From Micromonospora coxensis (GTDB taxonomy: Bacteria > Actinomycetota > Actinomycetes > Mycobacteriales > Micromonosporaceae): DNA of 64,000 nt. Location: NCBI RefSeq assembly GCF_900090295.1, contig NZ_LT607753.1, forward strand, positions 5,952,001 to 6,016,000. Reading direction: 5' to 3'. A program made the translations under genes and the position numbers. Positions 12,399-34,900 of this stretch are shown one piece after another (the first letter of the stretch is position 1; every line of letters begins with the position of its first letter). The notes beneath the pieces are model-generated. The model saw only the letters and a program-made list of their open reading frames with translations, ran no database searches and had not been told where the DNA came from.

Positions 12399-12729
12399 CG
12401 CCCGGAGCGCCCGCGCACCCCTCCTGAGCAGCCGTTAAGGGGCCGGACGGGGCGGAAAAACAGTGGCCTTCGGGGCCTCTCGCCGAAAATTTACTTGCCG
12501 GTAGGCACTTAAGCGGAAACTCCTCTACGCGCTAGAGGGATGATCGGTTGAATTTCGGCGACCGATCACCGCCGGCCCGTCGGACCTTCGGGCCGACTCC
12601 GATCGATGGCCTTCCTCCCCGGCCATCGAGCCATATTCTGCATCCATTGTGAAGTCCTGGGGGGGATCATGATCACAATCATCCATTCCTGCGTGCCCAT
12701 CCCCAGTGGAGCTCACCCGGCTCCCTGAG
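12399..12729. promoter_or_regulatory. probable promoter/operator region of the NRPS/PKS operon
   Basis: A 331-bp gene-free stretch, lower in GC than its surroundings, before the operon. It holds several symmetric elements. CCTCTA (12522-12527) and TAGAGG (12533-12538) frame a 17-bp near-palindrome. TGATCGGT (12541-12548) and ACCGATCA (12561-12568) are perfect 8-bp inverted arms with a 12-base spacer. GATCATGATC (12665-12674) is a 10-bp palindrome. They look like dimeric-regulator sites, and since no regulator is encoded in the operon the controlling protein must be encoded elsewhere. No precursor-peptide-like open frame was recognised. Confidence 0.5.
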
Positions 12730-16196
<3,467 letters not shown>

Positions 16197-16200
<4 letters not shown>

Positions 16201-19200
16201 ACTGGTTCCTCTCCGCCGGCCGCCGTGACCCGGCACCGGTGCAGCTGTTCTGCCTGCCCTACGCCGGCGGCGGCGCGAGCGTCTTCCGGCACTGGCAGGA
16301 CGGGCTCGGCGCGGACGTCGAGGTGCTGCCGGTGCAGCTGCCGGGGCGGGAGAACCGGATCAGCGAGGACCCGGAGTTCCGGGTGGCCGACGTCGCGTCC
16401 GCCGTCGCCGGGCGGGTCCGCGGCCCGTACGTCATCTACGGCCACTCGATGGGCGGCCGGGTCGGTTTCGAGGTGGTCCGCGAGCTGCGCCGCAGCGGTG
16501 GTCCGCTGCCGCTGCGGCTCTACGTCGGCGGCGCCCGCGCCCCGCACGTGACCGCGCCCAGCCTCTTCGACGGGCTGTCCCGGGTGGACGACGACGAACT
16601 GCTGCGCCGTCTCGGCGCGGGGGGCGGCCTGCCCGCCGAGCTGCTGGCGCACCCCGAGCTGGTCGAGCTGCTGCTGCCGCTGCTGCGCGCCGACTTCGGC
16701 CGGGTGGACAGCTACCGCTACGTCCCGGACGAGCCGCTGCCGGTGCCGATCGTGGCGTTCAGCGGCCGGCACGATCGCGCCGTGACCCGCGCGCACAGCG
16801 ACGCCTGGCGCGAGCACACCGCCGCCGGCTTCACCCTGCGGGACATCGACGGTGGGCACTTCTTCCTCACCGACCGGCTCCCCGAGCTGCTGGCCGCGAT
16901 CCGCGCCGACCTCGACGGGGCCGTGCCCGCCGCCGCCGACCCGGCCGCCGACCCGGCCGCGTCCGGCGGCCGGGCGGCCGCTGTCGGTCCGGTCGCGTCC
17001 GGCGGCCGGGCGGCCACTGCTGGCCCGGTCGCGTCCGACGACAGGGCGGCCACTGCCGGCCCGGCCGCGTCCGACGACCGGGGGGCCATTGTCGGTCCGG
17101 CCGCGTCCGGTGAGCGGGCGGCCGGTGTCGCCGGCCCGGTGGGCGGGCACCGGGTGCCGCTCGGCGACACCGGGTGGTCGGTGTGGCGCGACGCCATCCT
17201 GCGCACCACCGGCTTCCCCGCCGACGGGCTGACCATGCTCTCCGCCCCCACCGCCGCCACGGCCGCCGACGAGCTGCTCGCCACCGGCGACGGCGCGGAG
17301 CGCTACGACAAGGAGGTCGCCGAGGCGTTGACGGCGACCGGGCGCCGGCTCACCGAGCTGGCCGCCGATCCGCTGCTGCGCGAGGCGGTCACCTGGCAGA
17401 ACCGGGACGCCCTGGTCGCCCTCGACGGTCTGGCGCGCGGCGGCCCCGACCCGGCCCGCAACGTGCGGCGGCGGGATCGCGAGCGGGCCCTGTTGAAGTA
17501 CTGGCAGCGGTACTGCGGCAAGAACGAGACGGTCGGCTTCTTCGGGCCGAGCTGCTGGGTCACCCTCGACCCGGCGCGGCCGGAGACCGTTGACGCGCGT
17601 CCGGGACCGGGCCTGACCCGGCGCCGCTGGGTGTGGTTCGAGTCCTGGGCGCTCAGCGCCTACGCCGACCGGATCGGCGCGGACCCGGCGGTGCGCCGGT
17701 GGTGGCCGCCGATGCTCTGCCCGCAGGTGAGCCTCGCCGGCCGGGCGCTGCGCCGGCCGGGCCGGCCCCCGGTGACGCTCGCCCCGGTCGAGGCGGCGCT
17801 GCTGGCCGCCGTCGACGGCCGCCGCCCGGCCCGCGAGCTGGTCGCCGACCCGACGATCGGGCTGCGCCGGCCGGAGGACGGCTACGCGCTGCTGGACCGG
17901 CTGGTCGAACGCGAGCTGATCACCTGGGACGCGGGCCTGCCGGTGAGCCCGGACGCGGAGGACGTGCTGCGGCGACGGATCGAGGCGATCGGCGACGAGA
18001 CCGCCCGCCGCGACGCCCGCGCCGGCTTCGACCGGCTGTGCGCCGCCCGCGACGCGGTGGCCGCCGCGGCCGGCGACCCGGAGCGGCTGCGCGTCGCCCT
18101 GGACGCGCTCGACGCCACCTTCACCGAGCTGACCGGGGAGTCCCCGCGCCGCCGCGCCGGCCAGATGTACGCCGGGCGCACCCTCTGCTACGAGGACACC
18201 AGCCGGGACCTCGACGTGGTCTTCGGCAAGCCGCTGCTGGACCGGATCGCCGCCCCGCTCGGGGTGCTGTTGCAGGCGGCCCGCTGGCTGGTCGACGCAC
18301 TGGAGCGGGCGTACGGTGCCGCGTTCCGGGAGCTGCACGACGAGCTGCGCGCCGAGGCGGGTGACGCCCCGGTGGCCCTGTCCGACCTGTGGTACCTGGC
18401 GCAGGGCATGTTCTGGGGCGACGGGCCGCGACCGGTCGACGCCGTCGCCGCCGAGTTCGCCGACCGGTGGGCCGGGCTGTTCGGCCTCGCCACCCTTCCG
18501 CCCGGCACCACCGAGGTCCGGCTCTCCGTGGCCGACCTGGCCGCCCGCGTCGCCGAGGTCTTCCCGGCCGCGCGACCGGCCTGGCCCAACGCCCGGCTGC
18601 ACAGCCCGGACCTGCAGATCTGCGCCACCGACGTGGCGGCGCTGGCGCGCGGCGAGTACACCGTGGTCCTCGGTGAGCTGCACGCCGCCTGGGCGTCCTT
18701 CGACTGCCACGTCTTCACCCCGTCGCACCCGGACGTGGGCCGGCTGCGCGACGCGCTCACCGAGGACCTCGGCGAGCGGCGGATCCGGCTGCTCCTGCCG
18801 ACCGAGTGGCCCCGCCGCACCAGCCGGGTCGCCGAGGCGCTGACCGGTCCGACCGACCGGCAGCTGGCCTTCGTCGCGGCGCCCGGCGCCGACCCGGACC
18901 GGGTGCTGCCCACCGTGGACCTGACCGTCACCGAGTCCGACGGCCGGCTGTTCGCCACCGCCCCGGACGGTGCGCGCTGGACCCTGACCGAGGTCTTCTC
19001 CCCGCTGCTCAGCGCGCACGCCGTCGACGGGTTCAAGCTGGTCGCCGCCGCGCCGTACACGCCCCGGATCACGCTCGGCGAGATGGTGGTGGCCCGGCAG
19101 ACCTGGCGTACCACGGTCGGCGCGAGCGGGCTGGCCGCCGTCACCAGCGAACGGGACCGGTTCCTCGCGGTCCGGGACTGGCGTCGCCGCCTCGGCCTGC

Positions 19201-19457
19201 CCGAGCAGGTGTACGTCAAGTTCGGCACCGAGACCAAGCCCTGCTTCGTGGACCTGAGCAGCCCCGCGTTCAGCGCCATGCTCTGCGCCATGGCGCGGGC
19301 CGCCCGCACCGACGGCGGTGACGACGCCTCGCTGCTGGTCAGCGAGATGCTGCCGACGGCCGAGGACGCCTGGGTGCCCGACGCGGCGGGCCGCCGCTAC
19401 TTCAGTGAGCTGCGGCTGCACATCGTGGACGCCGACGAGCGGGAGGCCCGCCGATGA
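16197..19457 (+). CDS. type II thioesterase fused to a LanB-like (lantibiotic dehydratase-type) domain
   Basis: 1086 aa; ATG overlaps the previous stop by 4 bp. Residues 1-245 are a type II thioesterase: LFCLPYAGGGASVFRHW, GHSMGG with Ser84, and GGHFF with His221. Then comes an Ala/Gly-rich linker (about 245-318) made of 12-residue repeats. Residues about 318-1086 are a lantibiotic-dehydratase N-terminal (glutamylation-type) domain: LGDTGWSVWRD, VTWQNRDALVALDGLA, LKYWQRYCGKNETVGFFGP, AGQMYAGRTLCYEDTSRDLD. The C-terminal elimination domain (SpaB_C type) of full-length LanB is missing. LanB-family proteins use aminoacyl-tRNA: glutamyl-tRNA to activate Ser/Thr for dehydration, or, in PEARL enzymes, aminoacyl-tRNA to extend a peptide. 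The substrate here is presumably a carrier-bound amino acid; this fusion is unusual. Confidence 0.85.
16959..17138 (+). repeat. five tandem 36-bp units encoding the TE-LanB linker
   Basis: Units start at 16959, 16995, 17031, 17067 and 17103 and encode 12-residue repeats: ASGGRAAAVGPV, ASGGRAATAGPV, ASDDRAATAGPA, ASDDRGAIVGPA, ASGERAAGVAGP. The first four are close copies at DNA level and the fifth has diverged. They lie exactly between the thioesterase and the LanB-like domain, so they act as a flexible spacer and probably grew by slippage after the two genes fused. Confidence 0.9.
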
Positions 19458-21763
19458 GTCACCTGATCCCCCTCGGCGACACCGGCTGGTCGGTGTGGCG
19501 CGACGTCGTGCTGCGTACCGCCGGCTTCCCGGCGGGCGGACTGGCCGCCTTCGCCGCGCCCGAGGCGGCGGACGCCGCGGACGCCCTGCTGGCCGGCGAG
19601 GGCGCCGCCGACGTGTTCGAGAAGGCCTTCGCGGCGGCGCTGGCCGACGGCTCCACGGTGGCCGGCGAGATCGCCGCCGACCCGCTGCTGCGCGAGGCGG
19701 TCACCTGGCAGAACCCGGAGATGCTGATCGCGCTGGACGGCCTGCTGCGCACCGATCCGGCGGTGCGCAACGTGCGGCGGCGCAAGCGGGAGCTGAGCCT
19801 GCTGCGCTACTGGCAGCGCTACTGCGGCAAGGCCGAGACGATCGGCTTCTTCGGCCCGGTCTGCTGGGGCCGGCTCGACCCGGACGACCCGGCCACCCGG
19901 CTGCGGCCCGGCCCGGCGCTGGTGTCCCGGCGCGAGGTCCACTTCGAGGCGTGGGCGCTGATCGCGTACGCCGACCGGCTCGCCGACGACCTGGCGGTGC
20001 GGCGCTGGTGGGCGCCGACGCTGCCGCCGCACCTGAGCCTGTCCGACCGGCGGGTCACCCGGCCGCTGCTGCCCCCGACCGAGCTGACCGCCGTGGAGGC
20101 CCGGCTGCTGGCCGCCTGCGACGGACGCACCCCCGCCGTGACCCTCGTGCAGCGGCTGCTGGCCGACGGGGAGACGGGCCTGCGCAGCGCCGACGACGCC
20201 TACCTGCTGCTCGACCGGCTGGTCGACCGGAGCCTGCTGACCTGGGACGCCGGCCTGCCGGTCAGCCCCGAGGCCGAGCACGTGCTCCGCGAGCGCATCG
20301 ACGCCATCGGTGACGCGCCGGTGCGCGCCGAGGCGGCGGCCGCCTTCGGCCGGCTGTGCGCGGCCCGCGACGCGGTCGCCGCGGCGGCCGGCGACCCGGA
20401 ACGGCTCGGCGCCGCGCTGGCCGCGTTGAACGCCGAGTTCACCGCCGTCACCGGCCGCCCCGCCACCCGTCAGGCCGGGCAGATGTACGCCGGCCGCACG
20501 GTGCTCTACGAGGAGACCGCCCGCGACCTGGACTTCACGGTCGGCTCGACGGTGCTGGACGCGCTGGCCGAGCCGCTGGCGATCGTGCTGACGGCCGCGC
20601 GGTGGCTGACCGCCGAGGTCGGCGCCGCCGGGGAGCGGCTCTTCGCGGACCTGCACGCCGAGCTGCGGGGCGACGGGCCGGTGCGGCTGGCCGACGTCTG
20701 GGCCCTGGCCCAGGGGCTGCTGCTCGCCCCGGACGGCCCGATCGCCCGGGCCGGCGCCGGGCTGACCGCCCGCTGGGCCGAGCTGATCGGCCTGGACGCG
20801 GTGACACCGGGGCAGACCGAGCTGCGGTTGCGCAGCGCCGACCTGGCGGAGCGGGCCCGCGTGCTGTTCGCCGCCGACCGCCCCGGCTGGCCGTCCGCCC
20901 GCCTCCACAGCCCCGACGTGCAGATCGCCGCCGACGGGCTGGACGCGCTCGATCGGGGCGACTTCCTGCTGGTGCTCGGCGAGCTGCACCCGGCGTACGT
21001 GCCGTTCGACAGCGCGGTGCTGACCCCGTTCCACCCCGACCAGCCGGCGCTGCGGGCGGCGCTGGACGCCGAACTCGGCCCGGCCCGGGCCCGGGTGCTC
21101 TACCCGGAGAGCTTCCCGCGGATGACCACCCGCATCACGTACGCCCTCAACGGTCCCCGGGACCGGCAGTTCGGCATCGACACGGCCCGGGGCGCCGACG
21201 TCGACCGGCTGGCCCGCTCCACCGAGGCCCTGGTGGAGGACGACGGCGGTCAGTGGGTGGCGGTGCTGCCCGACGGCACCCGCTGGCCGCTGATGGAGAT
21301 CTTCGCCAACCTGCTCGGCGCGATGCTGCTGGACAGCTTCAAGCTCCTCGCACCGGCTGCGCACACCCCCCGGATCACCATCGACCGGCTGGTCGTGGCC
21401 CGGCGGACCTGGCGGACGACGGTCAGCCGGACCGGCCTGGCCGGCGTCACCGGCGAGGCCGAGCGGTTCCTCGCCGTCCGCCGGTGGCGGGCGGACCTGG
21501 GGCTGCCCGAGCGGGTGTTCGTCAAGGTGGGCACCGAGATCAAGCCCTGCTACGTCGACCTCACCGCCCCGCTGCACGCCCAGTCCCTCTGCGCCATGGT
21601 CGACGCCGCCGCGAAGAGCGGCCCCGACGTCACCGTGACCGTCAGCGAGCTGCTGCCCGACCCGGCGGACGCCTGGGTGACCGACGCGCAGGGGCGCGGC
21701 TACGTCAGCGAGCTGCGCCTGCAGATCACCGATCCAGTCAGCTACCGGGGAGAGCACGGGTGA
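19454..21763 (+). CDS. stand-alone LanB-like protein (glutamylation-type domain only)
   Basis: 769 aa, the size of the LanB-like part of the preceding protein and clearly its paralogue: shared stretches include IPLGDTGWSVWRD, ADPLLREAVTWQN, YWQRYCGK.ET.GFFGP, TWDAGLPVSPEAEHVLRERI and RDAVAAAAGDPERL. The tRNA-binding/transfer type N-terminal LanB fold is complete, and the SpaB_C elimination domain is absent. No LanC cyclase, leader peptide or precursor gene lies nearby, and both neighbours are NRPS/PKS genes, so a ribosomal peptide is unlikely to be the substrate. ATG overlaps the previous stop by 4 bp. Candidate roles: aminoacyl-tRNA-dependent dehydration of a carrier-bound Ser, or delivery of an amino acid from tRNA to the line. 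The two copies may work as a pair. Confidence 0.87.
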   Translation: MSHLIPLGDTGWSVWRDVVLRTAGFPAGGLAAFAAPEAADAADALLAGEGAADVFEKAFAAALADGSTVAGEIAADPLLREAVTWQNPEMLIALDGLLRTDPAVRNVRRRKRELSLLRYWQRYCGKAETIGFFGPVCWGRLDPDDPATRLRPGPALVSRREVHFEAWALIAYADRLADDLAVRRWWAPTLPPHLSLSDRRVTRPLLPPTELTAVEARLLAACDGRTPAVTLVQRLLADGETGLRSADDAYLLLDRLVDRSLLTWDAGLPVSPEAEHVLRERIDAIGDAPVRAEAAAAFGRLCAARDAVAAAAGDPERLGAALAALNAEFTAVTGRPATRQAGQMYAGRTVLYEETARDLDFTVGSTVLDALAEPLAIVLTAARWLTAEVGAAGERLFADLHAELRGDGPVRLADVWALAQGLLLAPDGPIARAGAGLTARWAELIGLDAVTPGQTELRLRSADLAERARVLFAADRPGWPSARLHSPDVQIAADGLDALDRGDFLLVLGELHPAYVPFDSAVLTPFHPDQPALRAALDAELGPARARVLYPESFPRMTTRITYALNGPRDRQFGIDTARGADVDRLARSTEALVEDDGGQWVAVLPDGTRWPLMEIFANLLGAMLLDSFKLLAPAAHTPRITIDRLVVARRTWRTTVSRTGLAGVTGEAERFLAVRRWRADLGLPERVFVKVGTEIKPCYVDLTAPLHAQSLCAMVDAAAKSGPDVTVTVSELLPDPADAWVTDAQGRGYVSELRLQITDPVSYRGEHG

Positions 21764-24700
21764 CCGACATCCTGTCCATCAGCGCCGTCGACGGGGAGAC
21801 CCTGCCGTGGCCGGAGGCGACCCTGGCCGACCTGATCGCCGCCCAGGCCGCCCGCACCCCGGACGCGGTCGCGGTGCGCCAGTGGGACGACCGGCTCACC
21901 TACGCAGAGCTGGTCGGTCAGGCGGCCGGGCTGGCCGCCGCGCTGCGGGCCCGGGGCGTCGGCCGGCACACCCGGGTCGGGGTCTGCGGCCGACGCCGAC
22001 CCCGGCTGGTCGTCGACGTCCTCGGGGTGCTCCTGGCGGGTGGCTGCTACGTGCCGGTGGAGCCGGACGGCCCCCGCGAGCGGCTGCGCGAGATCCTCGC
22101 CGACGCGCAGGTGTCGCTGCTGGTCGGCGACGCCGCGACCGAGTTGACCGAGGCGGCCGACCTGCCGGGCGTCGAGGTGGTCGAGTCGGCGGGCCCGGCC
22201 CCGCTGGCCCCCTGCCCGGCCCGGCCCGGTGACCCCGCGTACGTGCTGTTCACCTCCGGCTCCACCGGCCGGCCCAAGGGGGTGCTGACCTCCCACCGCA
22301 ACCTGGTCGAGTTCGTCACCGGCTGCGCGGCGGTCAGCGACGCCGACGCCGGGGTGCGCAGCCTCGGCATCGCCTCGCTCGGTTTCGACGTCTCCGTCAT
22401 GGACCTCTTCCTGCCGCTGCTGCTCGGCGGGGCGGTGCAGCTGGTCGGCGCCGAGGACCGCGCGGACCCGGTCCGGCTCGCCCGGTTCATCACCGCGCAC
22501 GAGGTGAACTGGGGTTTCATCACCCCGATCGTGCTGTCCCTGCTGGACCCGGCCGAGGTGCCGGGCTGGCGCACGGTGTTCTGCGGCGGCGAGGCGGTCC
22601 CCGCCGAGCTGGCCGCCCGCTGGGCGCCGGGGCGGCGTTTCATCAACGGCTACGGCCCGACCGAGACCACCGTGCTGGCGCTCACCGGCGAGCTGACCGG
22701 CGCCGAGAGCGACCCGGTGCCGATCGGCCTGCCGCTGCCCAACCACCGGGCGTACGTCGTCGACGCCGAACTGCGCGCGGTGCCGCCGGGGGAGACCGGC
22801 GAGCTGTTGATCGGCGGCCCCGGCCTGGCCGACGGCTACCTGCACCGGCCCGGCCTGACCGCCGAGCGGTTCGTCCCCGACCCGTTCTCCGGCCTGCCCG
22901 GCGAGCGGCTGTACCGCACCGGTGACCTGGTCCGGCAGGCGCCCGACGGGCGGATCGTCTACCTCGGGCGCGCCGACCGGCAGGTGAAGATCCGGGGCCA
23001 GCGCATCGAGCTGGGCGAGGTCGAGGCCGTGCTGGCCGGCGTCCCCGGCGTCGACCGGGTCGTCGTCGAGGCGGTGTCCGGGCCGGCCGGCGCCGAACTG
23101 GTCGCGGTCCTCACCCCGGCCGACGCGCCGGACGACGAGACGATCCGGGGGTACGCCCGGACACGGCTGACCGCCGCGATGCTGCCGGCCCGGCTGCTGC
23201 GCCGCGACGACCTGCCGGTCAGTCCGGTCACCGGCAAGCTGGACCGGCCGGCGCTGCGCGCCCTGGCCCTGGCCGCGCTGCACACCGGCCCCGACGATCC
23301 GACCGGCCCGGCCGATCCGACCGATCCGACCGGCCCGGCCGACCCGGTGACCCGGACGGCGACCCGGATCTGGGCGCGGCTGCTCGGCGCGGTCCCCGGA
23401 CCGGACACCGACTTCCTCGCCGCGGGCGGCAACTCCATCGCCGCGATGCGCCTGGTCGCCGCGCTCCGCGCCGAGCTGGGCCGGCACGTCGACACCCGGG
23501 ACGTGCTGACCGGGCGCACCTTCGGCGGCCTGGTCGCCCGGCTGCGTACCGCCGCGCCGGCCGAGGCCGAGGAACTGCGCACCGGCAACCCGCCCACGCT
23601 CTCCCCGCCGCAGCGCCGGCTCTGGTTCGTCGACCAGCTCGCCCCCTCCAGCGCCCCGTACAACATCGCCGTCGCGCACCGGCTGAGCGGCCCGCTGGAC
23701 ATCGCCGCGCTGGGCGTGGCGCTGCGGGCCGTCGCCGAGCGGCACGACGTGCTGCGCTGGCGGATCCCGCAGACCGCCGGGGTGCCGTACGCGGTCTGCG
23801 AGGAGCCCACCGACGTGGCCGTGCCGGTGGTCGACCTGACCGGCAGCGCCGACGCCGAGGCGGAACTGGCCGGGATGCTCGCCGCCGGCGCCGCGCACGC
23901 CTTCGACCTGGCCACCGGGCCGCCCTGGCAGGTGACCGTCTACCGGCTCGGCGCCGAGGCGCACGTGCTGGCGATGACCCTGCACCACGCGGTCTTCGAC
24001 GGCTGGTCCGAGGCGGTCCTCTACGACGACCTCGCCGCCGCGTACGCCGCGGCCGTCACCGGTGCGCCCCCGACGCTGCCGCCGCTGGCCGCCACGTACG
24101 CCGACTACGCGGTGTGGCGGGCCGAGCGGGACCGCCGCCGGGGCGCGGCGGACCTCGCCTGGTGGACCGAGCACCTGCGCGGCGTGCCCACCGTGCTGGA
24201 GCTGCCCCGCGACCGGCCCCGCCCGGCGGTGCAGACGTACGCCGGCGCCGAGTCGGCGGTCACCCTCTCCGCGGCCGCCGACCGGGCGGTACGCGCCCTG
24301 GCCGCCCGGCGCGGCACCACCGTCGCCACGGTGCTGCTCGCCGGCTTCGCCGAGCTGCTGCGCCGGCTCACCGGCGGCGACGACCACGTGATCGGGGCGA
24401 TCGTCGCCGACCGCCGGGTGGCCGCGTTCGACGACGTGGTCGGCTTCTTCATCGACACCGTGCCGGTGCGGCTGCGCACCGGCGGGGCCGGCTTCGGTGA
24501 GCTGGTCGACCGGTGCGCCGCCGAGCTGCACGAGGTCACCGCCCACCCGGGCGCACCGCTGGAACGGGTCGTGGAGGCCCTCGGCGTCGGCCGCGACACC
24601 TCCCGCGCGCCGCTGGTGCAGGTGCTGTTCAACGTGCTCAACTTCGCCGCGCCCCGGCTGACGCTGACCGGGCTGACCGGCGCGCCGGTCCCGGTGCCCA

Positions 24701-25302
24701 AGCCCGGCTCGCCCTTCGACATCACCGTCTACGTGGTCGAGTCCGACGGCCGCCTCGGCGTCGAGGTGGTGCACAACCCGGACCTGTTCGACGCCGACCG
24801 GATCGACGCGCTCCTGGCCGACCTGGCCGAGCTGGTCGGCGCGCTCGCCGCCGACCCGGACGCACCGGCCGACGCGGTCGCCGCCGCGCTGCCCCGGCCC
24901 ACCGTACGGACGGCGCAGCTCGGCGCGATGACCGTGGCCGCCACCGAGCCGCCCCGCGCCCCGCTGCCGGCCGGCCCGGGCGGGCTGACCGACACCGAGG
25001 AGCTGATCGCCGGGATCTGGCGCGAGGTCCTCGAACGCGACCAGGTCGGGGTCACCGACAACTTCTTCGACATCGGCGGGCACTCCCTGGCGCTGGCCGC
25101 GGTGCACGCCCGGCTCACCGCCGCCACCGGCCGGTCGATCACGATGCTCGACCTCTTCCGCCACCCCACCATCCGGGCGCTCGCCGCCAACCTCGACGGC
25201 GCCGCCGACCGGCCGGAGCTGGCCCGCGCCGCGCTGCGCGCCGCCGCCCGGCGCAGTCGTACCCGCCGCAACCCACCTCGCCGCCCCGGCGGCACCGCGT
25301 GA
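21760..25302 (+). CDS. NRPS, A-PCP-C-PCP
   Basis: 1180 aa from GTG 21760, overlapping the previous stop (GTGA). Domains: adenylation (about 15-515; VLFTSGSTGRPKG, NGYGPTETT, YRTGDLVRQAPDG, TGKLDRPAL), carrier 1 with LAAGGNSIAA (Ser559), condensation (about 600-1030; HHAVFDG, His742-His743), carrier 2 with FFDIGGHSLAL (Ser1109), then a basic Arg/Pro tail. A spacer rich in DPTGPADP repeats joins A and carrier 1. Pocket residues are D-V-M-F-F-G-G-V-L-K, a hydrophobic pocket I cannot assign. The second carrier has no adenylation domain of its own, so it must be loaded by another A domain acting in trans, by an extended chain, or by a tRNA-dependent step such as the adjacent LanB-like proteins could supply. 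Confidence 0.9.
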   Translation: MTDILSISAVDGETLPWPEATLADLIAAQAARTPDAVAVRQWDDRLTYAELVGQAAGLAAALRARGVGRHTRVGVCGRRRPRLVVDVLGVLLAGGCYVPVEPDGPRERLREILADAQVSLLVGDAATELTEAADLPGVEVVESAGPAPLAPCPARPGDPAYVLFTSGSTGRPKGVLTSHRNLVEFVTGCAAVSDADAGVRSLGIASLGFDVSVMDLFLPLLLGGAVQLVGAEDRADPVRLARFITAHEVNWGFITPIVLSLLDPAEVPGWRTVFCGGEAVPAELAARWAPGRRFINGYGPTETTVLALTGELTGAESDPVPIGLPLPNHRAYVVDAELRAVPPGETGELLIGGPGLADGYLHRPGLTAERFVPDPFSGLPGERLYRTGDLVRQAPDGRIVYLGRADRQVKIRGQRIELGEVEAVLAGVPGVDRVVVEAVSGPAGAELVAVLTPADAPDDETIRGYARTRLTAAMLPARLLRRDDLPVSPVTGKLDRPALRALALAALHTGPDDPTGPADPTDPTGPADPVTRTATRIWARLLGAVPGPDTDFLAAGGNSIAAMRLVAALRAELGRHVDTRDVLTGRTFGGLVARLRTAAPAEAEELRTGNPPTLSPPQRRLWFVDQLAPSSAPYNIAVAHRLSGPLDIAALGVALRAVAERHDVLRWRIPQTAGVPYAVCEEPTDVAVPVVDLTGSADAEAELAGMLAAGAAHAFDLATGPPWQVTVYRLGAEAHVLAMTLHHAVFDGWSEAVLYDDLAAAYAAAVTGAPPTLPPLAATYADYAVWRAERDRRRGAADLAWWTEHLRGVPTVLELPRDRPRPAVQTYAGAESAVTLSAAADRAVRALAARRGTTVATVLLAGFAELLRRLTGGDDHVIGAIVADRRVAAFDDVVGFFIDTVPVRLRTGGAGFGELVDRCAAELHEVTAHPGAPLERVVEALGVGRDTSRAPLVQVLFNVLNFAAPRLTLTGLTGAPVPVPKPGSPFDITVYVVESDGRLGVEVVHNPDLFDADRIDALLADLAELVGALAADPDAPADAVAAALPRPTVRTAQLGAMTVAATEPPRAPLPAGPGGLTDTEELIAGIWREVLERDQVGVTDNFFDIGGHSLALAAVHARLTAATGRSITMLDLFRHPTIRALAANLDGAADRPELARAALRAAARRSRTRRNPPRRPGGTA

Positions 25303-25316
25303 CGAAGGACAGCCTC

Positions 25317-28300
25317 ATGAGCAACCCGACCGATACCGACCTGCCGGCCGACGACGGCATCGAGCCCATCGCCATCGTCGGGCTGGCCGCCCGCCTGCCC
25401 GGCGCGGCGGACGTGAACGAGTTCTGGCGCAACCTGGTCGACGGGGTCGAGTCGGTCACCGAACTGACCCGGGAGGAGCAGCTGGCCCGCGGCGCCACCG
25501 CCGAGGAGGTCGACGACCCGGGCTGGGTCAACCGGGCCCCGCTCGTCGACGGGTACGACGAGTTCGACGCGGGCCTGTTCGGGATGACCGCCCGGGAAGC
25601 GGAGATCACCGACCCGCAGCACCGGCTGTTCCTGGAGAGCTGCTACACCGCCCTGCAGGACGCCGGCTACGACCCGGCCCGCTACGACGGCGCGGTCGGC
25701 GTGTACGCCGGCACCGGCGGCAACACCTACCTGCACCGGTACGTGCTGCGCAACAAGCGCGTCGGCGGTGGCCCGCACAGTGCGGTCTCCATCGCCAGCG
25801 GCAACTCGCCGAACTACGTCGCCACCAACGTGTCGTACCGGCTGGACCTGCGCGGGCCGAGCCTGACCGTGCACACCGCCTGTTCCACCTCGCTCGTCGC
25901 GTTCCACCTCGCCTGTGAGGCGCTGCGCAACGGCGAGTGCGACATGGCCCTCGCCGGTGGCGTCAACATCGAGCTGCCGCACGTCGGCTACCTGGGCATG
26001 GACGGCTTCACCTCGCCCGACGGCCGGTGCCGCCCGTTCGACGCCGCCGCCAACGGCACGGTCTGGGGCAGCGGCGTGGGCGTCACCCTGCTCAAGCGCC
26101 TCTCCGACGCGATCGCCGACGGCGACGCGATCCGCGCCGTGGTGCTCGGCAACGCCATCAACAACGACGGCGCCGGGAAGGTCGGCTTCACCGCCCCCAG
26201 CGTCGACGGGCAGGTGGAGGCGATCGCCCAGGCGGTCGGCATGGCCGGGATCGACCCGCGCACCATCAGCTACGTCGAGGCGCACGGCACCGGCACCGCG
26301 ATGGGCGACCCGATCGAGGTCACCGCGCTGTCCACCGTCTACACCAAGGACACCGACGACCGGGGCTGGTGCGGCATCGGCTCGGTCAAGTCGAACATCG
26401 GCCACCTCAGCCAGCCCTCCGGCATCGTCAGCGTGATCAAGACGGTGCTGGCGATGGAACACGGCCTGATCCCGCCGACCATCAACTACGAGACCGCGAA
26501 CCCGGCGATCGACTTCGCCGACACCCCGTTCTACGTGGCGAACACCCTGACCAAGTGGGACACCGACGGCACGCCCCGCCGCGCCGGGGTCAGCTCGTTC
26601 GGCATCGGCGGCACCAACGCCCACGTGGTGCTCGAGGAGGCGCCGGCGGCGTACCGGGAGCGGCGGGTCCGTCCGGCGCACCTGCTGCCCGTCTCGGCGC
26701 GGACCGCCGGCGCGCTGGAGACCGCGGTGCGGCGGCTCGCCGAGCACCTGGAGTCCGCCACCGACCGGGGGCCGGAGTACCTCGCGGACGTCGCGCACAC
26801 CCTGCGCGTCGGCCGCCGGCAGTACCCGCACCGGGTCGCCGTGGTCGCCACCGACCTGGCCGACGCGGTCGCCGCGCTGCGCACGAAGCGTCGCCGGCAG
26901 GCCGGCGTGGTCGAGGGCACGGCGCCCCGGCCGGCCTTCCTCTTCTCCGGCCAGGGCTCGCAGTACGCCGGCATGGGCGCGCAGCTCTACGCCGAGGAGC
27001 CGGACTTCGCCGCCGCCGTGGACGAGTGCGCGCAGCTGCTCCGCCCTGAGCTGGGCCTGGACATCCGCGACCTGATCCTCGGCCGCGACCCGGAGGCCGG
27101 CGAGAAGCTCACCGAGACCCGCTACACCCAGCCCGCCCTCTTCGTCGTCGAGTACGCCCTGGCCGTGCTCTGGCAGTCCGCCGGCGTGCGGCCGGCCGCG
27201 ATGATCGGCCACTCGATCGGCGAGTACGTCGCCGCGACCGTGGCCGGGGTGCTGAGCCTGCCGGACGCCCTGCGGGTGGTCGCCGCCCGGGGCCGGCTGA
27301 TGCAGTCCGTCGCGCCGGGGTCGATGCTCGCCGTGCCGCTGGACGAGTCGGTGGTCGCCGAGCGGCTGCCCGAGGGGGTCACGGTCGCCACCGTCAACGG
27401 CCCGGGCACCTGCGTCGTGGCGGGCCCGAGCGACGCGGTCGCCGCGTTCGCGCAGACGCTGGACGTCAAGGCCAAGGCGCTGCGCACCTCGCACGCCTTC
27501 CACTCGCCGATGATGGAGCCGATCCTGGCCGAGTTCACCGCCCTGATGGGCACGGTGACGCTGCGGCCGCCGACGGTGCCGTTCCTGTCCAACGTGACCG
27601 GTGACTGGATCACCGACGAGCAGGCCACCGACCCGGCGTACTGGGCGGCGCACCTGCGCCGACCGGTGCGCTTCGGCGCCTGCGTGGCGACCCTGCTCGC
27701 CGAGGGCACCTGGTCGCTGCTGGAGTGCGGCCCGGGCCGGCAGCTGGCGAACCTGGCCCGGATGCAGGTGGCCAAGGCGTCCGAGGCGCAGCGGGCGCTC
27801 GTCCCGCTGGGCAGCCTACCCGGCCCGGGCGAGCCCACCGGTGACCTCGCCACCCTGCTCGGCACGGCCGCGGCGCTCTGGTGCGCCGGCGTCCCGGTGC
27901 GGCTGGGCGCCGACCCGGACGCCCGGCGGGTGCCGCTGCCGACGTACCCGTTCGAGCGTCGCCGCTACTGGGTGGACCCGGACCCGCAGGAGCAGGTGGC
28001 CGCGGCGCCGGTGGAGACCGGCCCGCGTCCGCTGCCGGAGTGGTTCGCGGTGCCGGTCTGGCGGCAGGCCGCCGCCGACCCGGCGGCCGCGCCGCTGGGC
28101 CGCTGCCTGGTCCTCGTCGACGGTCCGCGCGGCGACGCGCTGGTCGCGGCGCTGCGGGCCGCCGGCGCCGAGCCGACCGTGGTACGCCCCGGCGACGGTT
28201 TCGCCGCCGTCGACGGCGGCTACCGGCTGCGCCCCGGCGTCCGGGAGGACCACGACGCGTTGGTGGCCGCCCTCGGCGCCGACCTGCCGGACCGGCTGGT

Positions 28301-30785
28301 GCACGCCCTCGCCCTGGACGGCGCGCCGGCCGGCACCGACCTCGCGGCCGCCCGGGCCGCCCAGGACCGGGGCTTCTTCAGCGCCCTGCACCTGGTGCAG
28401 GCGCTCGCCGGCGCCGGGCTGACCGCCGAGGAGCGCACCCTCACCCTCGACCTGGTCACCTCCGGCATCGGCGACGTCACCGGCGCCGACCTGCTCCGGC
28501 CGGAGCACGCCACCCTCGCCGGCCTGGCCCGGGTGCTCCCGGCCGAACTGCCCGGGCTCGCCGTCCGGCTGCTCGACGCGGACCCGGCCGGCTCCGACGT
28601 GGACCCGGTGGTGGCCGAGCTGCGCCGCCCGGTCGACCCGCGGCGGGCCGAGCTGGCGTTGCGCGGGCGGCGTCGCTGGGTGACCGACTACGAGCAGGTG
28701 ACCGTGGACGCCGAGGCCGGGCCGGGCCCGCTGCGCGAGGGCGGCCGGTACGTCGTCACCGGTGGCCTCGGCGGCATCGGCGTCACCCTCGCCGAGGACT
28801 TCGCCCGCCGGGTGCGGGCGAAGCTGGTGCTGCTGGCCCGCTCCGGCCTGCCGCCGCGCGAGGAGTGGGACCAGCACCTCGCCGTGCACGGCGGCGCCGA
28901 CCGGGCCGGCCGGGCGATCGCGGCGATCCGCCGGATGGAGGCCGCCGGCGCCTCGGTGCTGGTCCTCGCCGCCGACGTCACCGACCCGGCCGACCTGCGC
29001 CGGGTTCGGCAGGCCGCCGAGGAGCGGTTCGGCGGCATCGACGGCATCGTGCACGCCGCGGGCCTGCCCGGTGGCGGCATGGCCGAGGTGAAGGAGCGGG
29101 CCGAGGCGGAGCGGGTGCTCGCCCCGAAGCTCACCGGCACCCTCGCCCTGGCCCAGGTCTTCGGTGACCTGCCGATGGACTTCGTCGCGCTCTGCTCCTC
29201 GATCACCTCGGTGATCGGCGGGTTCGGCCAGGTCGACTACTGCGCGGCCAACGCCTTCCTCGACGCGTACGCCCGCTCCGGGGCGGGCTTCCGGGCCCCG
29301 GTGGTGGCGCAGAACTGGGGCGGCTGGGCCGAGGTCGGGATGGCCGTGGAGACCGACTCGCCGGCCGGTTTCCGGGCCGCCGGTCGGGACACCGTGACCA
29401 GCGCGGTGGAGCACCCGGTGCTCACCACCAAGGTCGTCGGCGCGGACGGCACCGTCCTGCACGGACTGGTCTCCGCCGACACCCACTGGCTGCTCGACGA
29501 GCACCGCATCGGCGGGGTGCCGGTGGTGCCCGGCACCGCCCACCTGGAGTCGGTGCGCGCCGCGGTGGTCGCCGCGCTGCCCGCCCCGGCCGCCGACGCG
29601 GCGGTCGAGCTGCGCGACGTGGTCTTCCTGGAGCCGTTCTCGGTGCCGGACGGGACCGTCGCCCAGTACCGGGTCGAGCTGACCCCCACCGACGAGGGGG
29701 TCGACTTCACGGTGCGCAGCCTCGCCGCGGGCACGACGCGCACCCACGTGCGCGGCGCGGCCGGCTGGACCACCGAGCCCGCCCCGCCGGCCCGGGTGCC
29801 GGCGGTCACCGGCCGCCGGGTCGACGACGACGCGTCGTTCGGCCGGGGCCGCACCAGCATGCTCACCTTCGGTCCACGGTGGCACGCGCTGGCCGAGCAC
29901 CACCTGGGCGAGGGGGAGGAGCTGGCGCACGTCGTCGCCCCCGCCGAGGTGGCCGCCGACCTGCCCGCCTGGGGGCTGCACCCGGCGCTGCTGGACGTGG
30001 CCACCGCGTTCGGCCGTGGCCAGGGCGAGGGCACCTACCTGCCGCTGTCGTACGGGCGGATCGTGGTGCGCGGGCCGCTGCCGGCGCAGTTCCACAGCCA
30101 CCTGCGGCACCGGACCGGGGCGAGCGTCGAGGTGGTCGCCGCCGACCTGTCGTTGACCGACGCGCAGGGCCGCGAACTCGTCGCGATCGGCGACTTCGTG
30201 CTGCGCCGGGTCGACCAGGGTGCGGTGACCGGGGGACTGGCCGCCGCCGGCGCCGGCGAGCCGAGCACCCCGGCCGGTGACGCGGTGACCGAGGACATCC
30301 GCCCGGTCGACGGGGCCGAGGCGTTCCGGCGCAGCCTGAGCGCCGGTCTCGGCGCCCAGGTGGTCATCTCCACCCGCACCGTCGAGGACGTCCGGCACCG
30401 GTCGTCGCGGGTGAGCACCAGCGACCTGGAGTCCGACGGCGAGTCGGCCGTGGCCGTCCCGACGGCCGCCGCGGCCGGTTCCGCCGCGCCGCGCACCGAG
30501 CTGGAGAGCACCATCGCCGCGGTCTGGCGGGACGGCCTGGGCGTGGCCGAGGTCGGCGTCGACGACGACTTCTTCGCCCTCGGCGGCAACTCCCTGGTCG
30601 CGGTGCAGCTGATCGCCGCGATGCGCAAGGCGACCGGGGTGCGGCTGCCGATGCGCAGTCTCTTCGAGACCCCGACCGTGGCCGGGCTGGCCGCCCGGAT
30701 CGAGGAGCTGCGCGCCGCCGCCCCCGCCGACGCCCCGGCCGCCCCAGCCACCGTTGCCGCCATCCCGCGGCTGCCCCGCGCCTGA
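25317..30785 (+). CDS. type I PKS, KS-AT-KR-DH-ACP
   Basis: 1822 aa from ATG 25317, with GAAGGA 7 bases upstream; a GTG at 25299 overlapping the previous stop is the alternative. KS about 18-440 (Cys189 in HTACSTSLV, EAHGTGTAMGD, KSNIGHLSQP). AT about 540-860 (FSGQGSQ, GHSIGE with Ser633, and HAFHSPMM, the malonyl-CoA type). KR about 1000-1350 (GGLGGIG at 1149, QVDYCAANAF). DH about 1375-1620 with HRIGGVPVVP (His1396) and HPALLDVA (Asp1560), placed after the KR rather than before it. Carrier with FFALGGNSLVAV (Ser1759). It adds one malonate unit, then ketoreduces and possibly dehydrates, giving a beta-hydroxy or alpha,beta-unsaturated acyl group. The carrier is followed by a C domain in the gene at 31950, so chain transfer to Asn is likely. 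Confidence 0.92.
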   Translation: MSNPTDTDLPADDGIEPIAIVGLAARLPGAADVNEFWRNLVDGVESVTELTREEQLARGATAEEVDDPGWVNRAPLVDGYDEFDAGLFGMTAREAEITDPQHRLFLESCYTALQDAGYDPARYDGAVGVYAGTGGNTYLHRYVLRNKRVGGGPHSAVSIASGNSPNYVATNVSYRLDLRGPSLTVHTACSTSLVAFHLACEALRNGECDMALAGGVNIELPHVGYLGMDGFTSPDGRCRPFDAAANGTVWGSGVGVTLLKRLSDAIADGDAIRAVVLGNAINNDGAGKVGFTAPSVDGQVEAIAQAVGMAGIDPRTISYVEAHGTGTAMGDPIEVTALSTVYTKDTDDRGWCGIGSVKSNIGHLSQPSGIVSVIKTVLAMEHGLIPPTINYETANPAIDFADTPFYVANTLTKWDTDGTPRRAGVSSFGIGGTNAHVVLEEAPAAYRERRVRPAHLLPVSARTAGALETAVRRLAEHLESATDRGPEYLADVAHTLRVGRRQYPHRVAVVATDLADAVAALRTKRRRQAGVVEGTAPRPAFLFSGQGSQYAGMGAQLYAEEPDFAAAVDECAQLLRPELGLDIRDLILGRDPEAGEKLTETRYTQPALFVVEYALAVLWQSAGVRPAAMIGHSIGEYVAATVAGVLSLPDALRVVAARGRLMQSVAPGSMLAVPLDESVVAERLPEGVTVATVNGPGTCVVAGPSDAVAAFAQTLDVKAKALRTSHAFHSPMMEPILAEFTALMGTVTLRPPTVPFLSNVTGDWITDEQATDPAYWAAHLRRPVRFGACVATLLAEGTWSLLECGPGRQLANLARMQVAKASEAQRALVPLGSLPGPGEPTGDLATLLGTAAALWCAGVPVRLGADPDARRVPLPTYPFERRRYWVDPDPQEQVAAAPVETGPRPLPEWFAVPVWRQAAADPAAAPLGRCLVLVDGPRGDALVAALRAAGAEPTVVRPGDGFAAVDGGYRLRPGVREDHDALVAALGADLPDRLVHALALDGAPAGTDLAAARAAQDRGFFSALHLVQALAGAGLTAEERTLTLDLVTSGIGDVTGADLLRPEHATLAGLARVLPAELPGLAVRLLDADPAGSDVDPVVAELRRPVDPRRAELALRGRRRWVTDYEQVTVDAEAGPGPLREGGRYVVTGGLGGIGVTLAEDFARRVRAKLVLLARSGLPPREEWDQHLAVHGGADRAGRAIAAIRRMEAAGASVLVLAADVTDPADLRRVRQAAEERFGGIDGIVHAAGLPGGGMAEVKERAEAERVLAPKLTGTLALAQVFGDLPMDFVALCSSITSVIGGFGQVDYCAANAFLDAYARSGAGFRAPVVAQNWGGWAEVGMAVETDSPAGFRAAGRDTVTSAVEHPVLTTKVVGADGTVLHGLVSADTHWLLDEHRIGGVPVVPGTAHLESVRAAVVAALPAPAADAAVELRDVVFLEPFSVPDGTVAQYRVELTPTDEGVDFTVRSLAAGTTRTHVRGAAGWTTEPAPPARVPAVTGRRVDDDASFGRGRTSMLTFGPRWHALAEHHLGEGEELAHVVAPAEVAADLPAWGLHPALLDVATAFGRGQGEGTYLPLSYGRIVVRGPLPAQFHSHLRHRTGASVEVVAADLSLTDAQGRELVAIGDFVLRRVDQGAVTGGLAAAGAGEPSTPAGDAVTEDIRPVDGAEAFRRSLSAGLGAQVVISTRTVEDVRHRSSRVSTSDLESDGESAVAVPTAAAAGSAAPRTELESTIAAVWRDGLGVAEVGVDDDFFALGGNSLVAVQLIAAMRKATGVRLPMRSLFETPTVAGLAARIEELRAAAPADAPAAPATVAAIPRLPRA

Positions 30786-30811: not shown

Positions 30812-31765
30812 ATGAGCGACACGATCGCCACGCTGCCGGTGGTCGTCGAGAGCGACGGCACACCGCTGACCGAGCTGATCGGCCGGCGCCGCGCGGAGCT
30901 GCGCGCCACCCTCACCGAGCACGGCGGGCTGCTGTTCCGCGGCTTCGACGTCGGCGGGGTGGACGGCTTCGACGCGGTCGTCCGGGCGTTCTCCGGCGAG
31001 CCGCTGACCTACACCGAGCGGTCCTCACCCCGGCACGCCATCAAGGGCCGGGTCTACACCTCGACCGACTACCCACCGGACGAGGAGATCTTCCTGCACA
31101 ACGAGAACTCGTACCAGGCGTCCTGGCCGCTGACGCTGTTCTTCTACTGCATCACCCCGCCGGACACCCTCGGCGCGACCCCGCTGGCCGACGTCCGCCG
31201 GGTGTACGAGGCGATCGACCCGGACGTGCGGGAGGAGTTCGTCCGGCGGCGCTGGATGCTGGTGCGCAACTTCCACGCCGACTTCGGCACCCGTTGGCAG
31301 GACGTCTTCGGCACCGCCGACCGGGCCGAGGTCCAGGCGTACGCGGCGCGCAACCGGATCGAGCTGGAGTGGGTCGGCGCCGACGGCCTGCGTACCCGGG
31401 CGGTCCGTGACGTGGTGCACCTGCGGCCCGGCTCGGACACCCCGCGCTGGTTCAACCACGCCACCTTCTTCCACGTGAGCACCCTGCCGAAGGACTACCA
31501 GGAGGGGCTGCTCGCCATGTTCGGCCCCGACGGGCTGCCCTCGAACACCTACTACGGCGACGGCGGCGAGATCCCCGCCGACGTGCTGGACCACCTGCGG
31601 GCCGCGTACCGGGCGGCCAGCGTCCGCTTCGACTACCACCGCGACGACGTGCTGGTGGTCGACAACATGACCGCCGCGCACGCGCGGGAGCCGTTCACCG
31701 GCCCCCGCAAGATCGCCGTCGCGATGGCCGAACCGCACACCCCCGAGAGCGCTGGAGACAACTGA
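30812..31765 (+). CDS. TauD/SyrP-like Fe(II)/2-oxoglutarate oxygenase
   Basis: 317 aa; ATG 30812 with AGGAG upstream. A clavaminate-synthase/TauD-type dioxygenase: the HxE iron ligands are in FLHNENSYQ near residue 95, the distal His in DNMTAAHAREPF near 290, and the 2-oxoglutarate-binding Arg in GPRKIAVAMAE. ITPPDTLGATPLADVRRVYE is typical of SyrP-like members encoded in NRPS clusters. Such enzymes hydroxylate the beta-carbon of Asp, Asn or similar residues, free or carrier-bound. The neighbouring module with an Asn-like pocket makes beta-hydroxylation of Asn/Asp the best guess. Its stop shares a base with the mbtH start, so it is cotranslated with the NRPS genes. Confidence 0.87.
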   Translation: MSDTIATLPVVVESDGTPLTELIGRRRAELRATLTEHGGLLFRGFDVGGVDGFDAVVRAFSGEPLTYTERSSPRHAIKGRVYTSTDYPPDEEIFLHNENSYQASWPLTLFFYCITPPDTLGATPLADVRRVYEAIDPDVREEFVRRRWMLVRNFHADFGTRWQDVFGTADRAEVQAYAARNRIELEWVGADGLRTRAVRDVVHLRPGSDTPRWFNHATFFHVSTLPKDYQEGLLAMFGPDGLPSNTYYGDGGEIPADVLDHLRAAYRAASVRFDYHRDDVLVVDNMTAAHAREPFTGPRKIAVAMAEPHTPESAGDN

Positions 31766-31953
31766 TGGCCGAGCCCCGATTCCTGGTCGTGCGCAACGAC
31801 GAGGAGCAGTACTCGATCTGGTCGGCCGACCGTGAGCTGCCCGCCGGCTGGCACGACGCCGGCTTCGCCGGCTCCCGCGAGGAGTGCCTGGCCCACGTCG
31901 AGGTGGTCTGGACCGACATGCGCCCCCGCTCGGTACGGGAGGTCTCGTCGTGA
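31765..31953 (+). CDS. MbtH family protein
   Basis: 62 aa, normal length for MbtH. Contains the family signature NDEEQYSIWSADRELPAGW followed by CLAHVEVVWTDMRPRS, with the conserved Trp residues that clasp an adenylation domain. MbtH proteins bind NRPS A domains and are needed for their folding or activity. It sits directly before the Asn-type NRPS, with a 4-bp overlap (GTGA), and after the oxygenase. It may serve any of the four adenylation domains of the line. Confidence 0.96.
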   Translation: MAEPRFLVVRNDEEQYSIWSADRELPAGWHDAGFAGSREECLAHVEVVWTDMRPRSVREVSS

Positions 31954-34900
31954 CCCGCGAGTGGACCTTCCCCGCCTCCTTCGCGCAGGAGCGGGTGTGG
32001 CTGGCCAACCAGCTCGACCCCGGGTCCCCGGTCTACAACGTCTCCGGCCCGTGGCGGGTCCCGGCCGGTGTCGACGCCGCCACCGCGATCGAGGTGCTCG
32101 ACCGGGTCGTCGCCCGGCACGAGGCGCTCCGCACCCACCTGCGCGTCGACGACGGCGCCCTGGTGCAGGTCGTGCGGGAGCACGAGCCGGTGACGGTCCC
32201 CGTCGAGGACCTGCGCGAGCTGCCGGAGGCCGAGCGCGCGGCCCGGTTCGAGGCGCTCTGCGTCGACCTCGCCCGCACGCCGATCCCGTTGGACGCCCCG
32301 CCGCTGTGGCGGGCCCGGCTGGTCCACCGCGGCGACGCCTGGCTGCTGCTGTTCGTGGTGCACCACGCCGTCTTCGACAGCCGGTCGGCGGTGCTGATGG
32401 TCGACGAACTCGACGCCTTCGCCCGGGCCGCGTCGACCGGCGCGAGCGCCGCCGTGCCCGAGCTGCCCATCCAGTACGCCGACTTCGCGGCCTGGCAGCG
32501 GGACCAGCTCAGCGGCGCGGAGCTGGACCGGCAGCTCGACTTCTGGAAGCGGCACCTGACCGGCGCGCCGGCCGTCACCGGGCTGCCCCTGGACCGGCCC
32601 CGCCCCGCCCAGCTCGGCTTCGCCGGCGACGAGGTCCGCTTCGCCCTGCCCGACGGGCTGCTCGACCGGATCGGCCGGCTCGCCGTCGGCGCGTCGGCCA
32701 CGCCGTACATGGTGCTGCTGGCCGGCTTCGCCGCGCTGCTGTCGCGGATCTCCGGCGACAGCGACGTGGTGGTCGGCGTCTCCACCGCCGGGCGGGACAG
32801 CGCCGAGGTGATGCCGCTGATCGGCATGTTCGTCAACCCGGTCGCGCTGCGCTGCGACGTCGGCGGCGACCCGAGCTTCACCGAACTGCTCGGCCGGGTT
32901 CGCGACGGCCTGGTCGACGCGATGGAGCACGGCCAGACGCCGTTCCAGCGCATCGTCGAGGCGGTCGACCCGCAGCGCGACCCGTCGGTGCAGCCGATCT
33001 TCCAGACCGCGCTGAACTTCATCCCCGACTCCGGCCTCGACCCGGTGGAGCTCGGCACCGCCAAGGACGACCTGGCCTTCGACGTCACGGCCGGGGAGAG
33101 CCGGCTGGTCTACCGCACCGACCTGTTCGACCGGTCCACCGCCGAGTCGGTGGTCGCCCGTTACGTGCGGCTGCTCGAGGCGGCGGTCGCCGACCCGCAG
33201 CGGCCGGTCTCCGCGCTGCCGCTGCTCGACGACGCCGAGCGGGAGCTGGTCCTCGGCGGGTGGGCCGGCGCCGGCACGGCGGGTGTGCTGCCCACCGTCG
33301 TGGACGAGGTGCAGCGGCAGGCCGCCGCCACCCCGGACGCCACCGCGCTGGTCTGCGCCGACGTGCGGCTGACGTACGCGCAGCTGAACGCCGCCGCGAA
33401 CCGGCTCGCCCGGGTGCTGGTGGCCCGGGGCGCCGGCCCGGAGACCCGGGTGGCGCTCGCCCTGCCCCGCTCGGCGGAGCTGCTGGTCGCCGTCCTCGCC
33501 GTGCTCAAGGCCGGCGCCGCGTACGTCCCGGTGGACACCGGCTACCCGGCCGGCCGGATCGCGTACCTGCTCGCCGACGCCGAGCCGGCGCTGGTGCTGG
33601 CCCTGCCGGAGACCGCCGCGCTGGTCGGCGGCGACCCGGTGCTGCTGGACGGCACGACCGGCGCCGACCGGTCCGACGCCGACCTCACCGACGCCGAGCG
33701 GACCGCCCCGCTGCGCCCCGAGCACCCGGCGTACGTGCTCTACACCTCCGGCTCCACCGGCCGGCCCAAGGGCGTGGTGGTGGAGCACCGGGCCGTCGCG
33801 GCGTACCTGGCCTGGGCCCGGGACACCTACCCGGGGCTGGCCGGCACCGCGCTGCTGCACTCGCCGGTCTCGTTCGACCTCACCGTCACCGGCCTGCTCG
33901 GCCCGCTCACCGCCGGCGGCACGGTCCGGCTGGCCGCGATCGACTCGCCGCAGGCCCGCGAGGGTGGACGCCCCAGCTTCCTCAAGGTCACCCCGAGCCA
34001 CCTGCCGCTGCTCGACGCGGAGCTGTCCCCGACCACCGACCTGGTGATCGGCGGGGAGGCGCTCACCGGGGAGCAGCTGGCGGGCTGGCGCGCCGCCCAC
34101 CCGGACGTGGCGGTAGTCAACGAGTACGGCCCGACCGAGGCGACCGTCGGCTGCGTGGCCGCCCGGATCGGGCCCGGTGAGCCGGTGGCCGCCGGCCCGG
34201 TGCCGATCGGCGGGCCGACCGCCGGGGCGCGGGCGTACCTGCTCGACGCCGCGCTGAACCCGGTGCCGTCGGGCGTGGTCGGGGAGCTGTACGTCGCCGG
34301 CGACCAGCTCGCCCGCGGCTACCTGGGCCGGCCCGCGCTCACCGCCGAGCGTTTCCTGCCCTGCCCGTACGGGCCGCCGGGGCAGCGGATGTACCGCACC
34401 GGCGACCTGGCCCGCCGCCGCGCCGACGGCACCCTGGACTACCTGGGCCGCCGCGACGACCAGGTCAAGGTGCGCGGCATGCGCATCGAGCTGGGCGAGA
34501 TCGAGTCGGCGATGCTGGCCCACCCGGAGGTGCGCGAGGCGGCGGTGGCGGTACGCGCCGAGTCCGGCGAGCCGACGCTTGTCGGCTACCACGTCGGCAC
34601 CGCCGAGGAGGCCCACCTCGCCGCCGAGCTGGCCCGGGAGCTGCCCGCGCACCTGGTGCCGACCGCGTTCGTCCGGCTCGACGCGCTGCCGCTGACCCCC
34701 AACGGCAAGCTCGACCGGGCGGCGTTGCCCGCCCCGGCCGCGACGGCCTCCGGCGACGGCTACGTCCCGCCGCGCACCGACGCCGAGACCCTGGTGGCCG
34801 AGGTGTACGCCGACATCCTTCAGGTGGAGAAGGTGGGCGCGCACGACGACTTCTTCGCCCTCGGCGGCAACTCGCTGCGCGGGATGCGGGCGATGGCCCG

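Follow-up and report, generated by a model that had tools for sequence, protein, structure and literature searches.

The window, a stretch of 64,000 nucleotides from Micromonospora coxensis (contig NZ_LT607753.1, 5.95-6.02 Mb), carries an NRPS/PKS operon in the order A-T-KS, TE-PEARL, PEARL, A-T-C-T, KS-AT-KR-DH-T, TauD, MbtH-like, C-A-T and C-A-T-TE-MFS; all features of this operon given below lie on the + strand. The first protein, NP1 (12706..16200), is an A-T-KS protein assigned by Pfam and the KS His motif, its KS Cys motif and linker being read by eye. This KS is without an AT, and the end of the protein looks, again by eye, like a post-AT linker. Genes upstream of 12706 differ between several relatives, with two in common in the genome G138, which makes 12706 the probable start of the cluster. 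No tRNA gene is present in the window.

The next two genes are joined to each other and to their neighbors by 4-bp overlaps (16197/16200, 19454/19457 and 21760/21763). These overlaps on both sides, together with the Pfam domains of the neighbors, confirm an earlier note on this DNA that placed the pair between NRPS/PKS genes in a coupled operon. TEP (16197..19457, open over that whole span, 1086 aa) is a fusion protein in which a PEARL-like Lant_dehydr_N domain (aa ~312-1086) follows a thioesterase (TE), recognized by Pfam, a GHSMG motif and the PEARL residues. Its thioesterase domain (aa 16-238, 16242..16910; PF00975, E 3.2e-35) is followed by a repeat-rich linker, which Tandem Repeats Finder resolves into about five copies of a 36-bp tandem repeat (16952..17130). 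PRL (19454..21763, likewise open throughout) is a stand-alone PEARL-like protein of 769 aa, assigned by Pfam and the PEARL residues. The earlier note was thus right about two LanB-like domains, while it overlooked the N-terminal thioesterase of TEP.

NP2 (21760..25302), an A-T-C-T protein recognized by Pfam and motifs and forming its own clade in the C-domain tree, has a second T domain without an A domain and the C motif LHHAVFDG. It is followed by a PKS module, KS-AT-KR-DH-T (25317..30785, from a Pfam run on 25302-30785), a TauD/TfdA-type dioxygenase (30812..31765, PF02668) and a 62-aa MbtH-like protein (31765..31953), an ORF in the sole sizeable gap that was named by sight. Two further NRPS proteins close the operon: NP3 (31950..35069), a C-A-T module from a Pfam run on 31884-35069, and NP4 (35066..40600), in which Pfam and the sequence place C-A-T-TE fused in frame to an MFS transporter. 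The A-domain codes were read by hand with residue positions and a specificity table that we take to be the appropriate ones; the NP3 code, DLTKVGEVG-K, resembles that for Asn and the NP4 code that for Ser, and the codes of A1 and A2 gave no assignment. The TauD dioxygenase adjoins the Asn-type A domain (30812-35069) and, judging from the code of the latter, is perhaps an Asn hydroxylase, which suggests a beta-hydroxy-Asn unit. The TE of NP4 (near aa 1117-1346) has Cys instead of Ser at the nucleophile position (GHCGVG). Cys-type thioesterases occur in enzymes making strained or hindered rings. NP4 orthologues in other Micromonospora are similar in length (1858, 1836, 1829 and 1843 aa in G138, G021, G086 and G013), and in the divergent sister cluster G057 the product of gene 11 likewise pairs a Cys TE (GHCVGG) with a Ser-type A domain, by a hand-read code.

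Domains and active-site residues of TEP and PRL

In profile searches Lant_dehydr_N (PF04738) was found in both proteins (E 5.6e-31 and 1.5e-35) and Lant_dehydr_C in neither, as had been claimed from the letters alone. Pfam detected no elimination domain in the cluster; PF14028 has two matches in the genome, both at 603-606 kb beside a full LanB, so that the ordinary LanB of this genome is about 5.4 Mb away from the cluster in contig coordinates. NCBIfam gave no match for TEP or PRL, and a search of solved-structure sequences with PRL or with profile A1 found no LanB. Neither LanC nor a precursor peptide was found among the Pfam-scanned ORFs of the window or in the two gaps whose ORFs were listed, again in accordance with the earlier note. 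The RiPP reading was rejected because no precursor-like ORF was recognized in these two gaps, the other gaps of the operon being shorter than 30 bp. Since neither an elimination domain nor a precursor peptide was seen, the target is likely a small molecule; to this extent the earlier reading holds, while the dehydration of Ser that went with it is not supported. With tblastn a PRL homologue, near or distant, turns up within the genus in 95 of 160 genomes (E up to 1e-10) and within the family in 152 of 354 (E up to 1e-15), and because homologues are so widespread the observation is not a product of chance.

For BhaBCTrp, the available text of PMC11962472 names D558, E575, R715, F755, E813 and R815 as ATP residues and R197, Q201, Y205, R208 and R429 as contacts of the tRNA 3'-CCA end, R34 being named as well. 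BhaBCTrp itself stood outside our alignment, and its residues were mapped by motif, by spacing and through SnaE and four putative Salinispora-like PEARLs, whose genus and PEARL label are our own reading. PRL has, in the same order, R21, Y119, R122, D488, E510, R650, F689, E753 and R755. All of these except F689 were scored, and by motif and spacing the eight scored positions correspond to R34, Y205, R208, D558, E575, R715, E813 and R815 as given in that text. E510 and R650 are 140 residues apart, as are E575 and R715. The equivalents in TEP are identical except for Tyr in place of F689, and R197 and Q201 look, by eye, like K and S here.

These residues are kept over a wide range of homologues. 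Nine positions (without F689 and with K126) are conserved in 116 of the best 120 of 760 homologues, and the four misses are gaps (P0060, P0067, P0070 and P0089), P0060 having also G for R650. The eight scored positions are kept in all 63 TEP and in 55 of 57 PRL sequences, both misses being pieces of broken genes (G068 and G100). Among relatives from other loci, with PEARL genes below 700 aa excluded, they are kept in 44 of 46 placed in NRPS context, the exceptions being L163, with Leu for E753, and L170, which is gapped at R21, and in six of six in other contexts. The scored residues align with those of SnaE and mostly with those of the four putative Salinispora-like PEARLs, one of which is gapped at R21 while two have D and H instead of Glu at E510. 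The RiPP PEARLs (TglB, BhaB and AmmB series) also have the scored ATP and tRNA positions in common with TEP and PRL, by motif and spacing, and several of them act in succession in one pathway (Bha, Amm; available text of PMC12945691). They lengthen a ribosomal carrier peptide, however, and no such peptide was seen in this cluster.

LanB proteins (NisB, MibB) belong to the same Lant_dehydr_N family, and the LanB of this genome has the Tyr and Arg of the tRNA helix in common with TEP and PRL. Unlike LanB, TEP and PRL have no elimination domain, and their cluster is without LanC or precursor as far as seen. Moreover, most of the ATP-site residues that TEP and PRL have are replaced in this genome's own LanB: in two alignments (the hhalign one read by eye) D488, E510 and R650 correspond to Ser, Ala and Pro, and in one alignment only E753 corresponds to Gln but R755 to Arg. 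The hhalign alignment of the family with LanB spans 631 columns (probability 98.2, E 2.8e-14) and ends before E753, and the letters of one Salinispora LanB-like protein differ between two alignments. The distant LanB and Salinispora rows are therefore weak controls, given the Arg retained at R755 and letters that depend on the alignment.

Copy number and probable loss in related loci

To follow the pair in Micromonospora-type loci we hand-picked 66 loci among the matches listed, 65 within the genus and one outside. Both genes are present in 58 of them (broken or partial in G068, G100 and G097) and TEP alone in eight. TEP, whole or in pieces, is found in all 66, and no locus has PRL without at least pieces of TEP. 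The absence of PRL amounts to five changes on a TEP tree of 63 rows, built by a quick method, and all five are forced by well-supported branches. PRL groups with proteins from Streptosporangium and Actinokineospora and not with TEP, which indicates that the two are old paralogues; an origin of PRL as a fresh tandem duplicate was rejected on the same grounds. Because PRL is an old lineage and the basal G031 and G313 have both genes, we read the five changes as losses, the direction being less sure in a clade that branches near the base and comprises G013, G032, G049 and G071. G026 retains an in-place PRL remnant of 200 aa (L065, 9970-10572). Loss through fusion of TEP with PRL was rejected as a general explanation, since a PRL-like last stretch occurs only in G010 and G127, the five other single-copy loci being TEP-like to the end. 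Loci without PRL but with the rest of the cluster are natural knock-outs, and the metabolites of PRL-less species compared with those of their close relatives would reveal the contribution of each enzyme.

When named genomes were scanned with a protein of Microtetraspora fusca, 53 loci were obtained, 38 of them with a C or KS domain in view. In 31 of the 53 the run of PEARL genes is directly followed by A-T-C-T, twice with an extra T. The 31 loci span 14 genera: Microtetraspora, Streptosporangium, Micromonospora, Nonomuraea, Actinocrispum, Bailinhaonella, Streptomyces, Saccharothrix, Catellatospora, Rhizocola, Labedaea, Virgisporangium, Amycolatopsis and Actinokineospora. When only loci with both flanks readable and copies above 700 aa are counted, one PEARL is present in 15 loci, two in 10 and three in one, Streptosporangium minutum (L143), whose three full-length tandem PEARLs are all among the residue keepers. 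In Streptosporangium canum (L144, 10004-14435) one PEARL is followed by an uncalled stretch and the tail of another; the uncalled stretch is possibly an assembly gap hiding further copies. Four Actinomadura loci (L165, L168, L173 and L178) have a PEARL relative near a stand-alone gene of the AMP-ligase type, with no C or KS in view.

Upstream of A-T and KS, many sister clusters (for example L080, 9889-12368) encode two further proteins, one with DUF6002 and one of NAD-binding type that has no Pfam match and that we take to resemble 'OCD'; these two may make an unusual starter amino acid. DUF6002 gave no match in the genome of the window, in a search that returned nothing in its controls either. 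In most loci A-T and KS are present and the A domain of the second module is missing. In Phytohabitans flavus (L158) the module equivalent to the second one of NP2 contains an A domain of its own, and A-T-KS was not seen nearby. From this exception it can be suggested that A-T-KS feeds the T domain lacking an A, and A-T-KS is the likelier source of its unit.

Proposed ligation and its precedents

We consider it likely, from the sequence evidence presented, that TEP and PRL are two PEARL-type amide-forming ligases which serve the NRPS/PKS line. This chemistry is the most likely one because the scored PEARL residues are kept, because those of the ATP site are mostly replaced in LanB, and because SnaE offers a precedent. 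Each ligase would use ATP to phosphorylate a free carboxylate, carried by an intermediate or product of the assembly line, and an aminoacyl-tRNA would supply the amino group to which the activated carboxylate is coupled. Once the tRNA had left, the molecule would be longer by one residue per enzyme. TEP would be the basic enzyme, with PRL adding a further residue where it is present, presumably in that order.

Gene inactivation has shown that the addition of Thr through an amide bond requires SnaE, a protein with the annotation lantibiotic dehydratase, whose target is the carboxylate freed when the C domain of SnaA joins two Arg by a urea (PMC11212132). SnaE is about 35% identical to PRL and TEP and pairs in the tree with G047, outside the group of TEP and PRL, on long branches. 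The SnaE pathway of Stackebrandtia nassauensis likewise combines a PEARL-like protein lacking the elimination domain with an NRPS/PKS cluster and no precursor. The A-T-C-A-T then KS-AT-T of threopeptin resembles NP2 and the following PKS, and both clusters hold a TE. However, threopeptin has one PEARL where this cluster has two and its relatives one to three, and A-T-KS, TauD and two NRPS modules are additional here. The C domains differ too, since that of threopeptin is of the ureido-forming EHHxxHDG type and that of NP2 has LHHAVFDG and falls in another clade.

This last difference bears on where the free carboxylate would come from. The C motifs in this cluster are LHHAVFDG (NP2), HHAVFDS (NP3) and KHHIVGDG (NP4), whereas in the cluster taken to be that of threopeptin (G348) the SnaA motif EHHLVHDG was found at residue 744. 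A 27-base pattern that stands for EHHxxHDGW is absent from the genome of the window and present in 35 of the 354 family genomes. When 53 C domains were placed in one tree, 30 ureido-type rows form one group and 17 NP2-type rows another, each well supported; the ureido-type rows are 29 of the 30 loci fetched by motif plus SnaA, the only C domain from a characterized pathway. Chain reversal of the ureido type, as in threopeptin, was thus rejected by the C motif, the genome pattern and the C-domain tree. It follows either that the free carboxylate has another source than in the SnaE pathway or that the NP2-type C domain has a chain-reversing mechanism of its own. The match of the layout A-T-C-(A)-T then KS-AT-T to SnaA and SnaB points, by analogy, to the first amino acid of NP2 as the one whose carboxylate would be ligated. 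We tentatively propose, as a possibility well short of probable, a two-way assembly line: the HHAVFDG-type C domain after the loading A-T would be a second, independently evolved class of chain-reversing domain which frees a carboxylate, one to three PEARLs would extend this carboxylate residue by residue from aminoacyl-tRNAs, the NRPS/PKS would extend the other end, and the number of PEARL genes would set the length of the tRNA-derived tail.

The main alternative keeps the same chemistry and moves it to the C-terminus, where the Ser carboxylate of the released peptide would be lengthened by TEP and then by PRL. Such lengthening of carrier peptides is a known PEARL reaction according to the available text of PMC11962472, and a TE comes after the last A domain, whose specificity looks to be for Ser. 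This TE has Cys, however, the type associated above with strained or hindered rings, and in 31 of the 53 named loci the PEARL genes lie directly before A-T-C-T and not beside the terminal module, so we regard this site as conceivable but rather unlikely. It would also be possible to see in the A-less T domain of NP2, next to which the PEARL run lies in those same 31 loci, a carrier protein to which TEP and PRL transfer the aminoacyl group from tRNA. But charging of a carrier would require no ATP and the ATP-site residues are kept; the Phytohabitans flavus module has its own A domain in the presence of PEARLs, and A-T-KS is the likelier source of the unit, which together make carrier charging improbable. 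Equally little probability can be given to TEP being the sole catalyst with PRL as a paralogue retained as partner or scaffold: PRL is missing from eight of the 66 loci in which TEP is kept, yet its eight residues are intact in all but the two broken-gene pieces among 57 sequences, and the three tandem PEARLs of Streptosporangium minutum keep them as well. The formation of dehydroalanine from a carrier-bound Ser by LanB-like glutamylation and dehydration, as the earlier note had it, draws on the LanB homology over 631 columns and on the Ser-type code (hand-read) of the last module, but is very improbable in a cluster without an elimination domain, with ATP-site residues kept, and with a characterized NRPS relative, SnaE, that forms amides (PMC11212132). 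Albopeptide, cited earlier as a LanB precedent, does not serve as one: in the available text of PMC10880069 its Dha and Dhb come from the C2 and C3 domains of AlbB with no involvement of a LanB, and because condensation domains carry out these dehydrations the proper precedent is SnaE (PMC11212132).

What the literature searched already describes, then, is one characterized PEARL in an NRPS pathway, SnaE, together with fusions of some family members to TE or T, among the approximately two thousand NRPS/PKS clusters which contain SnaE-like proteins (PMC11212132). Tandem PEARLs or PEARLs of variable copy number in NRPS clusters were not found in this literature, which extended to few subscription journals and to no SI files; among the papers listed, NRPS-associated PEARLs are reported only in the SnaE paper and in a preprint of it. 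In its main text PMC11212132 makes no mention of tandem, two lantibiotic, multiple PEARL, Micromonospora or Streptosporangium, and the review PMC12945691 contains neither the term NRPS nor threopeptin. The present clusters are a related group in which the number of PEARLs varies and the explanation of the free carboxylate given for SnaE does not fit. If one residue is indeed added per PEARL, the length of the tail could be adjusted by adding or removing genes, which would be useful for peptide making.

Two other systems resemble parts of this one. The livipeptin pathway also forms an amide in a tRNA-dependent manner beside an NRPS, there C-minus, although its enzyme is of the L/F-transferase type and, by its description in the available text (PMC10548850), of another fold family. 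LgnA, in the part of PMC8748450 available, is a type II TE which moves aminoacyl chains between T domains; in common with TEP it is a type II-like TE that belongs to an NRPS pathway whose T domains exceed what its condensations need, but it is a separate protein and dehydration in its pathway is carried out by a C domain, whereas the TE of TEP is fused to a PEARL. By analogy, hydrolysis, editing, or chain transfer as described there for LgnA are candidate roles of this fused TE.
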